Origin: Bacteroidota bacterium
GTDB taxonomy: Bacteria; Bacteroidota; Bacteroidia; Palsa-948
NCBI GenBank assembly: GCA_003164895.1
Contig: PLUL01000053.1
Coordinates: 1 to 35,700, forward strand
DNA: 35,700 bases
Direction: 5' to 3'
The translations under genes and the position numbers were made by a program. The notes under the pieces are model-generated. The model saw nothing but the letters and a program-made list of their open reading frames with translations. It did no database searches and was not told the DNA's origin. Positions 5,278 through 9,710 of this stretch are shown here, in pieces. The stretch's first letter is position 1. Every line of letters starts with the position of its first letter.

Positions 5278-5628
5278 TTACTTCAGTTTGTTTGTGTTGC
5301 TGTCGGGGAAAGCAAGTTTTGGATGAAATTTTTTCGCTTCCTCAAAATCCATATCGGCATAAGAAAGAACAATTACTTCGTCACCCACGGCAAATTTCAG
5401 AGCGGCAGGTCCATTCATACAAATGATGCCGGAATTGCGCGCTCCTTTAATAACATAGGTAATGATGCGCTCTCCATTGCGGTAATTCAGCACATGAACT
5501 TGCTCGTGCTCGATCAGGTTTGCGGCATCCATCAGATTTTCGTCAATGGTGATGCTGCCAACATAATTCAAATCGGCTTCGGTAACCCGTGCACGATGGA
5601 TCTTTGATTTTACAACTTGTATCTGCAT
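5278..5628 (-). CDS. panD: aspartate 1-decarboxylase
   Basis: PanD is a pyruvoyl-dependent enzyme that turns L-aspartate into beta-alanine for pantothenate synthesis in the cytoplasm. The 116-residue proenzyme has the self-cleavage site YVGSITID, with G24-S25 as the cut and S25 becoming the pyruvoyl group. Also visible are the [14 protein letters not shown] start, the [10 protein letters not shown] segment, and [15 protein letters not shown] near residues 62-76, which contributes to the active site. The length is normal. It follows panC by 46 bases on the same strand, so both beta-alanine supply and its condensation with pantoate sit in one operon. Confidence 0.96.
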
Positions 5629-5674: not shown

Positions 5675-6523
5675 TTACAAAGCAATATTATCAATCAAAC
5701 GAATTGTGCCGACTTTCACAGCGATACAGGCGCGACAGCCGGTAATCGGTAAATGGGTATCAGTAATCAGTTGCAGAGTTTCAGAATTTACAATCTCGAA
5801 ATATTCTAATTTCAGAAAAGGGTTTTCGTTAACTTTTTCTTCCACCCATTTTTTTAATTCTGAAATTGTCTTATTTGTATTTAACAACTTTGCTTCCATC
5901 ATTGTCTTGTAAATGAGCGGAACATTTTTTCTTTCATCCGGATTCAGAAACACATTTCTTGAACTCATGGCAAGTCCATCCGCTTCGCGAAAAGTCGGGC
6001 ATGGGATTATTTCAACAGGAATGTTCAGTATTCTTACCATATATTTAATGACTGCCAACTGCTGAAAATCCTTTTCACCGAAATATGCCTTATTCGGAAG
6101 AACAATGTCAAATAATTTTTTTACTACAGTGCAAACACCCTGAAAATGACCAGGGCGGAGTTTGCCTTCCATCACTTTGCCGAGGTTGCCTAAATCTATT
6201 TCAGGTTCTTTGACAAGCGTGGAAGGATACATTTCTTCCACGCCGGGTGCAAAAAGCACATCGCAATGGGCAGCTTTCAGTTTTAAAATATCATCCTCAA
6301 TAGTGCGTGGATATTTTTCCAAATCTTTTTTATCATTGAATTGGGTAGGATTCACAAAGATGCTTGATACCGAAATATCATTTTCTTTCTTCGCTTGTTC
6401 CAATAAAGATATGTGTCCGCGATGCAAAGCCCCCATGGTTGGAACAAAACCAATCGTTTTTCCCTCTTTTTTGAGGTTAATCAGACAATCTCTTGTCTCT
6501 TTTATCGTAGAAAATATTTCCAA
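5675..6523 (-). CDS. panC: pantothenate synthetase (pantoate-beta-alanine ligase)
   Basis: PanC joins pantoate and beta-alanine, using ATP, to make pantothenate. The 282-residue protein shows the nucleotidyl-transferase HxGH motif in GFVPTMGALHRGHISLL (residues 25-41), the substrate-binding FVNPTQF (57-63), GEKDFQQL (about 149-156), and the KMSKS-equivalent region MSSRNVFL (about 186-193). The length fits the family. It heads a panC-panD operon and is divergent from the glycogen-synthase-like gene. No panB is present in this window. Confidence 0.96.
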   Translation of the reverse strand: MEIFSTIKETRDCLINLKKEGKTIGFVPTMGALHRGHISLLEQAKKENDISVSSIFVNPTQFNDKKDLEKYPRTIEDDILKLKAAHCDVLFAPGVEEMYPSTLVKEPEIDLGNLGKVMEGKLRPGHFQGVCTVVKKLFDIVLPNKAYFGEKDFQQLAVIKYMVRILNIPVEIIPCPTFREADGLAMSSRNVFLNPDERKNVPLIYKTMMEAKLLNTNKTISELKKWVEEKVNENPFLKLEYFEIVNSETLQLITDTHLPITGCRACIAVKVGTIRLIDNIAL

Positions 6524-6595: not shown

Positions 6596-6630
6596 TTTGT
6601 TCAGTTATCGGATTTTTATTACTATCTTTG
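6596..6630 (+). promoter_or_regulatory. promoter of the glycogen-synthase-like gene
   Basis: TTTG at 6596-6599 and TATCTTTG at 6623-6630 form a Bacteroidota-type -33/-7 pair with a 23-base spacer, the long end of the accepted range. The ATG lies 40 bases after the -7 box, giving a leader of roughly 34 bases. Confidence 0.6.
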
Positions 6631-6670: not shown

Positions 6671-7492
6671 ATGAAAAAAGCCAGAATGTTATTTATTTCG
6701 CAGGAAATCACCCCTTATGTGGAGGAAAATCAGATGAGCATAATCAGCCGTCAACTTCCACAGGGAATCCTTGAAGCAGGAAAAGAGATCAGAACTTTCA
6801 TGCCAAGGTACGGTTGCATCAACGAGCGCAGGCATCAGTTACATGAGGTCATTCGCCTTTCAGGAATGAACCTTATTATAAATGATTTTGATCATCCGCT
6901 TATTATTAAAGTGGCTTCTATTCCGGCAGCACGCATGCAGGTTTATTTTATTGATAACGAGGATTATTTCAGCCGCAAAGCGGTTACTACTGATAAAAAC
7001 GGAAATATTTTTGCCGATACGGACGAGCGCCTTATTTTCTTTTGCCGCGGTGTGATTGAGACCGTGAGAAAATTAGGATGGGCGCCGCATATTATTCATT
7101 GCCAAGGATGGATGACATCTCTTGTGCCGATGTACCTCAAGCGTTCTTTTGGTGACGATCCTTTGTTTGGTGAAAGCAGGATTATTTATTCTATTCACGA
7201 TGATGAATTCAAACAAACGCTGAATAAAGATTTCGCTAGCAAAGTTTATTTTGAAGGAATTCAAAAAGATGATGTGAAACATTTGAAGAGCGGAACTTAT
7301 GCCGGACTCATCAAAACCGCTATTGATTTTTCAGATGCAATCATTAGGGTAGGAGAGAAGAGAAATTCGGAAGTGGAAAAATATCTTAAGAAAGCCGAAA
7401 AACCTGTGCTTGACCATCCGGGCGAGGATTATATTGATATGTATAACGACTTTTACGATGCGGTGCTGGAAGAAGAACCCGCGCTGGCATAA
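6671..7492 (+). CDS. half-length glycogen/starch synthase-like protein
   Basis: The 273-residue product resembles the N-terminal Rossmann-like domain of GT5 glycogen/starch synthases (PF08323). Matching segments are ARMLFISQEITPYV at the start, the PRYGCINERRHQLHEV stretch, VYFIDNEDYFSRK, the HIIHCQGWMTSLVPMYLK segment (related to H-x-H-D-W-xT in GlgA) and IIYSIHDDEF. Two things set it apart: the ADP-glucose-binding KTGGL loop near the start is absent (VEENQMSII occupies the place), and the whole C-terminal GT domain is missing, full GlgA being near 480 residues. The ORF is intact and ends naturally, so it is a short family form rather than a broken gene. Glycogen synthesis is unlikely; a binding or regulatory role is inference. 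It is divergent from panC and followed by DUF4270. Confidence 0.8.
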   Translation: MKKARMLFISQEITPYVEENQMSIISRQLPQGILEAGKEIRTFMPRYGCINERRHQLHEVIRLSGMNLIINDFDHPLIIKVASIPAARMQVYFIDNEDYFSRKAVTTDKNGNIFADTDERLIFFCRGVIETVRKLGWAPHIIHCQGWMTSLVPMYLKRSFGDDPLFGESRIIYSIHDDEFKQTLNKDFASKVYFEGIQKDDVKHLKSGTYAGLIKTAIDFSDAIIRVGEKRNSEVEKYLKKAEKPVLDHPGEDYIDMYNDFYDAVLEEEPALA

Positions 7493-7559: not shown

Positions 7560-9017
7560 ATGAGTAAAAACATTCGATATTTTTTTCTGCTGGCGGCAAT
7601 TACAATCATTGTTTCCTGTAAAAAGAAAACTCCCGATGACATCGGACTTCCCTATGTGCCTACCGGAGATTTGCTTCAAGCAAACTTTATTGATACGTTT
7701 ACTTTGATTACACATACTTGTAAAAGTGTTCCTTTGCTTATGACTGGACAGCCACTTAATCTTCTTGGAGCTACCAACGATCCGATTTTTGGAACCACCA
7801 CTGCATCCATTTTTACCCAATTTGAACCGGCTTTCTATTATCCGTCATTTGGCAAGAATATTACGCTTGATTCTGTTGTTCTTTCTTTGGCTTTATATAA
7901 CAATGGCGGGAAATATTATTACGGTGCTCTTGCTGCGGAAAAATTTGCGGTATATCAAGTAAGTGATCCTGCATTTAATGTGAGTTCGCCCTATTATTCA
8001 AACAGCACAACTTTATATAATACCGAAATCGGTAGTGCTTACATAAAACCGAGCGTAGTTTCTGAAAAAATTGGAACAGGTGCGGATACGCTTATCCTTC
8101 CTCCACAATTAAGAATAAAATTGCCTGCAAGCTATTTTTGGAATTCCGGATTTCTTGACTCTACTAATTATCTTACTCCAGCAATTTTTCAGAATTTTTT
8201 CAAAGGATTATATATTACCACAACATCCGCGCCTTCCTCCGGTCAAGGAGCAATTTTATATATTGACCTTACTGATGCCAATCCTTTTTATTCTCATCTC
8301 ACATTCTATTTCCGAAGCAGTTTGAAGTCAGGCGCAGCTGGACCATTAGGACGGGACACATTATTTAATTTAAATGTGAATACTGGCACCTGCGCACATT
8401 ATTCGCATATCGCCCATGATTATTCTAACGCCACGGATATTAATACTCAGATTAACGATAAGGATACTATGCATCAGGAAAATGATGTATATGTTCATAC
8501 GCTTGGAGGCGTGAGAACAAAAATTACATTTCCAAATCTCAAACATTTTTTTGATGATGGAAAAAAAGCAATCAATAAAGCCGAACTGATAATGAATGTT
8601 GAACCAAATTCCATTACAGGTAACGGTACAAATACTTCAACCTTTTCATGTCCAAATCAATTGATTGTTTGGGTTGCTGACTCTCTCGGTCCTCTTGTCA
8701 TTCCTGATTATTACGAAGGCGCAGCCTATTTTGGTGGTGTCTATGATTCCATAAAGCATCAGTACACTTTCAACATTGCCCGATATGTTCAGCAAGTATT
8801 AAATGGAACAAGGAAAGCGGAAGGTTTATACATTATGACGACTTCAGATTACACAACTGCCAATCGTGTTCAACTTATTGGTGGAAGTAAAGCGTTAAAC
8901 GGGCACATGAGTTTGGCAATAACTTATACTCCGTTAAGATCTGCGAGGTCTAAATCTCCTGTAAAAGATGTGAGCAAAACATCTTTGCAACCGGTTCAAT
9001 TAACTCAAAAGCAGTAA
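7560..9017 (+). CDS. DUF4270 family lipoprotein
   Basis: The 485-residue product is a DUF4270 protein, a family known almost only from Bacteroidota. It has a lipoprotein signal with a hydrophobic core and the lipobox IIVSC, cysteine at position 20, followed by KKKTPDDIGLP; the DIG-x-P segment after the cysteine is characteristic. The mature part is beta-rich with many Ser/Thr and no catalytic motif I can point to. The start at 7560 is required because the signal peptide begins right there. It follows the glycogen-synthase-like gene, an arrangement I recognise from other Bacteroidota, and the hairpin at 7528-7559 sits between the two. Probable location is the outer-membrane surface or periplasm; function unknown. 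Confidence 0.85.
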   Translation: MSKNIRYFFLLAAITIIVSCKKKTPDDIGLPYVPTGDLLQANFIDTFTLITHTCKSVPLLMTGQPLNLLGATNDPIFGTTTASIFTQFEPAFYYPSFGKNITLDSVVLSLALYNNGGKYYYGALAAEKFAVYQVSDPAFNVSSPYYSNSTTLYNTEIGSAYIKPSVVSEKIGTGADTLILPPQLRIKLPASYFWNSGFLDSTNYLTPAIFQNFFKGLYITTTSAPSSGQGAILYIDLTDANPFYSHLTFYFRSSLKSGAAGPLGRDTLFNLNVNTGTCAHYSHIAHDYSNATDINTQINDKDTMHQENDVYVHTLGGVRTKITFPNLKHFFDDGKKAINKAELIMNVEPNSITGNGTNTSTFSCPNQLIVWVADSLGPLVIPDYYEGAAYFGGVYDSIKHQYTFNIARYVQQVLNGTRKAEGLYIMTTSDYTTANRVQLIGGSKALNGHMSLAITYTPLRSARSKSPVKDVSKTSLQPVQLTQKQ

Positions 9018-9026
9018 ATAGGAATT

Positions 9027-9710
9027 TTATTCTACAGCATTTTCTTTGGCAACTGCTGCGTCCACTACTTTTTTCTGAGCATCTAACTCCTGTTTCTTTT
9101 TTTCCTGATCAGTTTTATTTTTTGCCAGATTATCCTGGGCATCTTTAATCCGTTTATTGTAATCTTCAATTTTAGATTTGTAATCATCAATATTTGAAGT
9201 TAATTTTTTCTGTTGTTTATCCAGATCACGTTGATCGCTTTCCAAAGCTGCAAGTTGTTTCTCCGCAGCTTTACGCTGACCGACAATAGCGTCTTTGGTT
9301 GTTTGCACGGCAAAGTCATGAACAATTTGTTTTGCTGCCTTGAGTTTTTCAGATGGTGAAGACGAACCGAGGAAAGCCCCGCCTAAATCAAACGCCACGA
9401 TCAATTTTGTTTCGCCATCTTTTACTTTTTCCGCTTTGGCATATACATCGATCGTATTGTTGCCGTTGACTTCAGAGATCACCGCATTATCAGCAAACAC
9501 TCCATCTTTTGTGGATACTTTTCCTTTATAACTTTTCATCAGCGATTTCCATTTGCTTTCCACCTCATCAGGTGTGGCATTATAAACATTCACCACCAAT
9601 GCAGGATTCTTATTTCCTCCTATGCGCTCAGTGGATTCGGTGACTTTTATTTTTTGAGCGAAAGATGAAAACGAAATGAAGAGAAGCGAAAGTGCGATGG
9701 GGTATTTCAT
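9027..9710 (-). CDS. secreted coiled-coil protein of unknown function
   Basis: The 227-residue product starts with a clear signal peptide (MKYPIALSLLFISFSSFAQ, cut after SFAQ). Residues 20-140 form a mixed domain with GGNKNPALVVNVYNATPDEVESKWK and FDLGGAFLGSS. From about 140 to the end it is charged and heptad-like (AALESDQRDLDKQQKKL and so on, rich in K, D, Q, E), a long coiled coil. No family name is known to me. It probably acts in the periplasm. Its promoter interlocks with that of tatD. The last codons lie only 9 bases from the end of the convergent DUF4270 gene. Confidence 0.7.
   Translation of the reverse strand: MKYPIALSLLFISFSSFAQKIKVTESTERIGGNKNPALVVNVYNATPDEVESKWKSLMKSYKGKVSTKDGVFADNAVISEVNGNNTIDVYAKAEKVKDGETKLIVAFDLGGAFLGSSSPSEKLKAAKQIVHDFAVQTTKDAIVGQRKAAEKQLAALESDQRDLDKQQKKLTSNIDDYKSKIEDYNKRIKDAQDNLAKNKTDQEKKKQELDAQKKVVDAAVAKENAVE

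Follow-up and report, generated by a model that had tools for sequence, protein, structure and literature searches.

Among described proteins, the closest in kind to the one reported here comes from plants: STARCH SYNTHASE 5 (SS5), which arose independently, acts in the context of starch and, as we take it, lacks the C-terminal domain. Published work terms SS5 non-canonical and non-enzymatic, and presents it as a starch-synthase-like protein that acts in a regulatory manner (PMC10801857). The protein reported here resembles it in being a GT5 N-domain that lacks the catalytic motif. For bacteria, a single sentence of PMC11046441 mentions a conserved GlgA-GT5 fragment in Bacteroidetes, and that sentence gives no function, architecture, neighbourhood or distribution. 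A conserved GlgA-GT5 fragment is therefore already known, and the nearest analogue of such a glycosyltransferase-derived pseudo-enzyme is, by analogy, plant SS5. In the open-licence literature we found no paper on the architecture, gene order or function of the short form, nor, among publications on symbionts, anything on the protein.

The relative of the short protein in B. thetaiotaomicron is, by annotation and position, BT_4307, which is annotated as glycogen synthase (PMC10797578, PMC8941943) and was one of 16 proteins that a vitamin B12 photo-probe enriched in each of two screens (log2 2.61 and 1.05), a capture that the corresponding part of PMC8941943 leaves without follow-up. The name has already misled, since a passage of PMC10797578 sees in BT_4307 a sign that glycogen may be stored. 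Published BamH proteins of the outer-membrane BAM machinery are Bt4306, PGN_1735 and Fjoh_0823, and the 100 bp upstream of fjoh_0824, judged by its number next to Fjoh_0823 probably the short gene of F. johnsoniae, have served as a native promoter (PMC12611786); the main texts of two BAM papers mention neither glycogen nor glmS. With regard to essentiality, the main texts of PMC3547785 (P. gingivalis) and PMC13114119 (P. vulgatus) held no match for glycogen, starch or the tags near PGN_1735.

A GT5 N-terminal domain with altered catalytic residues

The gene studied here lies in a window of 35,700 nucleotides from a Bacteroidota bacterium (contig PLUL01000053.1), whose relevant features are collected in Table 1. 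An earlier note on this DNA had described an intact gene for a protein that keeps the outline of the GT5 N-terminal domain, lacks KTGGL and the whole C-terminal domain, and so cannot work as a glycogen synthase. The reading frame is indeed intact from its ATG start, and the domain outline is borne out by PF08323 (GT5 N-terminal domain), the sole Pfam family of the protein, P0001 (E = 4.5e-47, positions 2-225 of the 239 of the profile). Neither a C-terminal glycosyltransferase family nor the CofD-type family PF01933 (GlmR/YvcK) was matched by Pfam in its 273 residues, and among 131 aligned short relatives PF08323 was matched in all and a C-terminal glycosyltransferase family was listed for none. 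The NCBIfam glgA models match P0001 on their N-terminal half only and far under their cut-offs (e.g. 158.9 bits against 754). Inspection of the sequence by eye found no export signal or lipobox, as a BAM subunit would carry, and in the structural model the first beta-strand of the fold already occupies residues 5-10. A reading as a defence protein was dropped, PADLOC giving no match, and Rfam had no match anywhere in the window.

Table 1. Features of the short GT5-like gene and its surroundings, in window coordinates.
Feature	Coordinates	Strand	Basis or remark
panD	5278..5628	-	Pfam
panC, divergent neighbour	5675..6523	-	profile matches
Putative Bacteroidota-type promoter: TTTG (6596-6599), 23 nt, TATCTTTG (6623-6630)	6596..6630	+	sequence; presumed consensus
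Short GT5-like protein P0001 (273 aa), made up of the GT-B N-terminal domain and the last helix	6671..7492	+	predicted non-catalytic from its residues
Site at which the KTGGLADV donor loop was lost, now EENQMSII (residues 18-25)	6722..6745	+	alignment
Codon 146: Gly replacing acceptor-binding Asp137 of E. coli GlgA	7106..7108	+	alignment
Codons 176-177: His-Asp at the site of the GlgA His161-Asn162 motif	7196..7201	+	alignment
C-terminal helix, residues about 254-267; likely the retained GlgA cross-over helix	7430..7471	+	model, PDB alignments, sequence
12-bp intrinsic-terminator-like hairpin, T-run up to the bamH start codon	7527..7554 (to 7559 with T-run)	+	z -3.60
DUF4270 lipoprotein, BamH-like	7560..9017	+	BamH_fj 96 bits, under cut-off 420

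Residue positions were read from an alignment of P0001 with E. coli GlgA, and the ADP- and acceptor-binding roles of the GlgA residues are those given in PMC6086201. Lys15-Thr16-Gly17-Gly18 of E. coli GlgA correspond to Glu18-Glu19-Asn20-Gln21 in P0001, so that the window reads EENQM at the KTGGL site, and the K.GG motif is found in none of 132 short forms against 14 of 17 full-length relatives. The acceptor position 146 is Gly in 122 of the short forms and Asp in 10. At position 176, 106 short forms have Tyr and 10 have His, as against His in all 17 full-length relatives. The adenine of ADP is held by the GlgA C-terminal domain according to the same source (PMC6086201), and this domain is absent from P0001. 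With the C-terminal glycosyltransferase family, KTGGL and the acceptor Asp all gone, the protein is predicted to be unable to act as a glycogen synthase, in line with the earlier note; it shares with GlgA the PF08323 GT-B N-terminal domain and the fold and appears to share the final helix.

Equivalents of Asp137, His161 and Asn162 are all retained in just two short forms, both of family f20 (L047, 2607-3404, and L157, 2514-3311), from which KTGGL and the C-terminal domain are gone; this combination points to an earlier loss of the donor side. As a separate observation, two full-length GlgA proteins of family f17 (L148, 1479-2948, and L149, 1196-2665), each the sole GT5-like match in its genome, carry RISAL instead of KTGGL, and L181 and L185 are likewise degenerate at this site. 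For GlgA proteins of the L148/L149 type, either KTGGL is replaceable or the proteins are inactive too.

Descent from full-length GlgA and the retained last helix

An IQ-TREE phylogeny of 73 N-terminal domains placed all 39 short forms in one clade (support 100/100, present in 200 of 200 bootstrap trees); nine rows of a quicker tree of 82 rows, near-duplicates or rows left out for time, were omitted from it, and in that quicker tree all 46 short forms also fell together. The clade sits inside the full-length GlgA of the FCB type (Fibrobacterota-Chlorobiota-Bacteroidota), distant from the canonical GlgA encoded elsewhere in some of these genomes. The trees show that the short protein descends from full-length FCB-type GlgA, and the alignments that it has lost the C-terminal Rossmann domain, the donor loop and the acceptor residues. 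Directly downstream of the full-length gene, a BamH-like gene was present in 4 of 17 full-length loci (L046, L151, L153 and L154), a count based on 1-3 kb of downstream sequence, in which a bamH lying farther away would be missed. These four proteins, close to the short forms in the tree, differ from them in their length of about 490-510 residues and in their intact KTGGL loop, Asp and His-Asn. As full-length GlgA proteins that retain KTGGL already stand beside bamH, the glgA-bamH order seems to be older than the excision.

The AlphaFold2 model of P0001 (mean pLDDT 93.3, pTM 0.92) adopts the GT5 fold by comparison with Arabidopsis SSIV, both in Foldseek (E = 2.6e-14) and in VIA-align, which aligned 253 of the 273 residues with Z 28.6 and an rmsd of 2.5. 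The aligned target ranges reach the chain ends (6gne_B 23-516, 2qzs 1-477 of 477, 1rzu_B 1-478), and since the middle part of the targets has no counterpart, the last helix of P0001 would fall on the C-terminal cross-over helix of GlgA, an identity that we infer from the aligned ranges and not residue by residue. The C-terminal ends also agree, with Y..FY..L in short forms and SA.KY..LYK.LL in full-length proteins. Scored with a profile of the full-length helix, 61 of the 132 C-termini of short forms exceeded the 95% level of shuffles, where about 7 would be expected, against 21 of 586 C-termini of other proteins, and the best site of the profile in the whole protein lay within the last 40 residues in 87 of 132 short forms (about 15% expected). 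The model of L047, from the base of the short clade, has a pLDDT of 87.9, the same terminal helix and the same chain ends aligned (Z 30.7).

A last helix that is retained while the middle is gone looks like the outcome of an internal excision rather than of a premature stop. The models and alignments strongly suggest that one excision removed the C-terminal Rossmann domain and kept the last helix, which would now cap the remaining domain. The claim that the whole C-terminal domain is missing thus stands for the Rossmann domain and has to be amended for the final helix, apparently retained. The short form is best explained as an ancient, repurposed pseudo-glycosyltransferase, and it would offer a clean example of an enzyme domain excised once, with its old last helix as a cap, and retained throughout a phylum.

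Spread, selection and gene neighbourhood

A match was found in 197 of 198 genomes of the phylum. The short form itself is present in 49 of 49 genomes of the same class and, for Bacteroidia in total, in 102 of 106; restricted to genomes at least 90% complete, the figure is 101 of 102, the exception (G199) being an assembly of 410 contigs. Within the genus, dN/dS ranged from 0.028 to 0.080 in the 8 of 10 pairs for which it was computable (two gave no value). Most pairs are saturated in dS, and only the closest one, with a dN/dS of 0.028, has a dS below 1. These data show that strong selection keeps the gene in nearly every examined Bacteroidia genome, and what these genomes keep is a gene misnamed glycogen synthase. 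At E 1e-3, a level that a distant GlgA may escape, 40 of the 49 class genomes have no GT5-like match besides the short protein.

A separately encoded C-terminal half that could pair with the short protein was also sought. All 20 PF00534 matches in the genome of the window lie in frames of 352-436 residues and none in a stand-alone frame, in a search limited to PF00534 (related families such as PF13692 fell outside it), and a separate half of this family is rejected. Together with the dN/dS values and the near-universal retention, this result upholds the proposal of the earlier note that the protein has a conserved role different from glycogen synthesis. The ligand binding or regulation suggested there would be compatible with these data.

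Residues fixed in the short forms of all classes and not in full-length proteins are L57, E59, V60, S64, G65, V81, A82, S83, K103 and T131, nearly all of them on a hairpin and loops of residues 46-103. Much of this conserved loop/hairpin face is common to active FCB-type GlgA, and being largely shared it may be structural.

The neighbourhood that had been described as shared across Bacteroidota is confirmed and extends to bamH, glmS and panC; the bamH-glmS link and the kept C-terminal helix are additions to the first reading. A DUF4270 gene is directly downstream and co-directional in 62 of the 66 phylum genomes with a DUF4270 match (61 with a short and one with a full-length protein) and is unlinked in G002, G007, G146 and G019. 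This count covers 99 genomes, namely 97 with a short best match plus the full-length G019 and G097, including all 66 with DUF4270, and leaves aside other full-length rows and matched genomes without listed rows. In 12 of 13 fetched loci with no DUF4270 match, our own BamH profile detected, by weak matches, a BamH-like gene in the same place. At the level of named loci with room, bamH is next in 63 of 73, mostly at most 60 nt away or overlapping, and panC is divergent upstream in 47 of 74; for this reason a pantothenate link was set aside as weaker than that to bamH. In 51 of 70 loci glmS begins no more than 2.3 kb downstream, giving the usual order short gene-bamH-glmS with the short gene leading, and where bamH has moved away glmS directly follows the short gene (L089, L092, L114, L164). 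In the loci fetched from other classes (2.4-4.1 kb downstream) no glmS adjoins the gene, and neither does one in the locus of the window, where a reversed gene of 227 residues with only weak coiled-coil-like Pfam matches (9027-9710, minus strand) occupies the place that glmS has in most relatives.

An unbiased clustering of neighbours in 80 named loci (56 groups at <70% identity of the short protein) recovered bamH in 63, panC in 48, glmS in 46, panD in 26 and an LPG-synthase-type membrane protein in 26, followed by RadA (24), an RfaE-type adenylyltransferase (20), GalE (14) and PBP1A (13); one member each of the glmS, RadA, RfaE, GalE and PBP1A neighbours was confirmed by NCBIfam or Pfam. Such gene order can persist by inertia, given that panC and panD also adjoin and that full-length glgA already stands beside bamH.

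The promoter elements of Table 1 match TTTG / TAnnTTTG, which we take to be the Bacteroidota promoter consensus. A TAnnTTTG box is present upstream in all five same-genus loci. Among 131 short-form loci, 113 have one within 150 nt, where mononucleotide shuffles predict 12.3, an excess that agrees with the claim that the gene has its own promoter. The hairpin that follows the gene recurs, with differing sequence, in 12 of 17 near relatives (weakly in L194; one further locus lacks the ORF), and read-through past it from the short gene may account for bamH expression. As a phylum-wide feature the hairpin was rejected, occurring in 5 of 41 intergenic gaps of at least 25 nt in the wider set, the window among the five; the shuffles behind this count and that of the near relatives preserve single-base composition only.

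Possible roles of the short protein

Retention across the class, even in a half-megabase genome, argues that the protein probably does an important housekeeping job. The genome in question, G224, consists of one contig (489,825 bases, GC content 0.218). Its short gene (L203, 6925-7779) lies between eno and gyrB, and the product, of 262 residues when read from the likely start codon, retains 18 of the 20 invariant positions and 25 of the 37 nearly invariant ones. Searches by tblastn, with E. coli queries for most genes, Bacteroidota queries for bamH, panC and panD, and both for glmS, matched murA, murB, murC, murD, murE, murF, murG, mraY, ddl, ftsI, ftsW, ftsZ, RadA and PBP1A in G224, and found no match for glmS, glmU, lpxA, lpxB, lpxC, lpxD, glgC, panC or panD, nor for bamH at E 10; an absent bamA match says little for a divergent BamA, as the query came from E. 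coli. Because G224 retains the short protein and gives no match for bamH, glmS or panC, its function appears independent of BamH, GlmS and PanC. This pattern places the role, cautiously, on the peptidoglycan side or in another core process, and the link to peptidoglycan is weak since its genes are just one of many core sets in G224.

The reading that we favour, tentatively and with somewhat less than even confidence, is that of a non-catalytic housekeeping protein in envelope or peptidoglycan control, a pseudo-glycosyltransferase formed by excision. The protein would be soluble and cytoplasmic and would bind a metabolite or partner through the loop/hairpin face (residues 46-65 and 74-103), and by this binding it would adjust how precursors of the cell envelope, most likely those for peptidoglycan, are supplied or used. 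With its own promoter the short gene would come first in the short gene-bamH-glmS cluster, which would couple its expression, in most Bacteroidia, to the assembly of the outer membrane and to hexosamine synthesis, while the protein itself would require neither bamH nor glmS. If the envelope role is true, the protein would be a new control point at which central carbon, the precursors of the cell wall and the assembly of the outer membrane are joined, in a phylum that is dominant in the gut. A stronger version, a core and perhaps essential phylum-wide envelope regulator that acts on peptidoglycan precursor use and supplies the missing GlmR/RapZ-type control, is doubtful. Retention after the loss of the outer-membrane canopy, LPS synthesis and hexosamine entry suggests that such a regulator would act on precursor use. 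The families of GlmR (PF01933) and RapZ (PF03668) were found in none of 60 class genomes (controls 10 of 14 and 6 of 14, respectively), an absence that leaves room for such a regulator without showing one.

We regard as unlikely that the protein is a dedicated BamH or BAM factor that regulates or assists the expression or export of the downstream lipoprotein. The adjacency described above, strong in genomes and named loci alike and extended by the weak matches in loci without DUF4270, speaks for it, and the pairing with bamH is more widespread than the link to glmS. Yet G224 keeps the protein with bamH unmatched, the genes are unlinked in G002, G007 and G146 and in 10 of the 73 named loci, a terminator-like hairpin separates them in the lineage of the window, and the short protein does not figure among the subunits in the published descriptions of BAM complexes consulted.

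A new or residual enzyme, with a different nucleotide, cofactor or sugar bound by the one remaining domain and a newly acquired activity, is improbable as well. The capture of BT_4307 in both B12 screens (PMC8941943) and the many fixed charged residues would fit it, but no new catalytic signature was found, and the capture may be unspecific, as the B12 list has other proteins without a known B12 role.

A GlmR-like regulator of GlmS that responds to a metabolite of the hexosamine pathway by adjusting the synthesis of glucosamine-6-phosphate seems similarly improbable. In B. subtilis, GlmR is an activator of GlmS as long as it has no UDP-GlcNAc bound (PMC7525490), and GlmR (YvcK) and RapZ, small regulators tied to GlmS, offer a working analogy only, as they belong to families unrelated to P0001. 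The proximity of glmS in most loci, its direct position in four of them and the absence of both known regulators from the class genomes favour this possibility; against it, glmS is not beside the gene in loci of other classes or in the window, and G224 retains the protein with no glmS match.

That the protein is a residual alpha-glucan-binding scaffold is very improbable. The GT5 fold and the comparable loss in SS5 would allow it, but the acceptor residues are gone, the genome of the window has no second GT5 (PF08323), no phosphorylase (PF00343) and no glgC above cut-off, and the 490-kb genome, which has no glgC match, still carries the gene. Glycogen was set aside as the main reading on the same grounds. 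Unlike that of SS5, the genome context of P0001 needs no glucan metabolism, and an SS5-like role in starch granule initiation and MRC binding is unlikely.

Finally, a functionless relic of a lost glycogen synthase, which the missing donor and acceptor residues might suggest, has practically no chance, being refuted by the dN/dS values and opposed by the retention of the gene in nearly all complete class genomes and in the 490-kb one.
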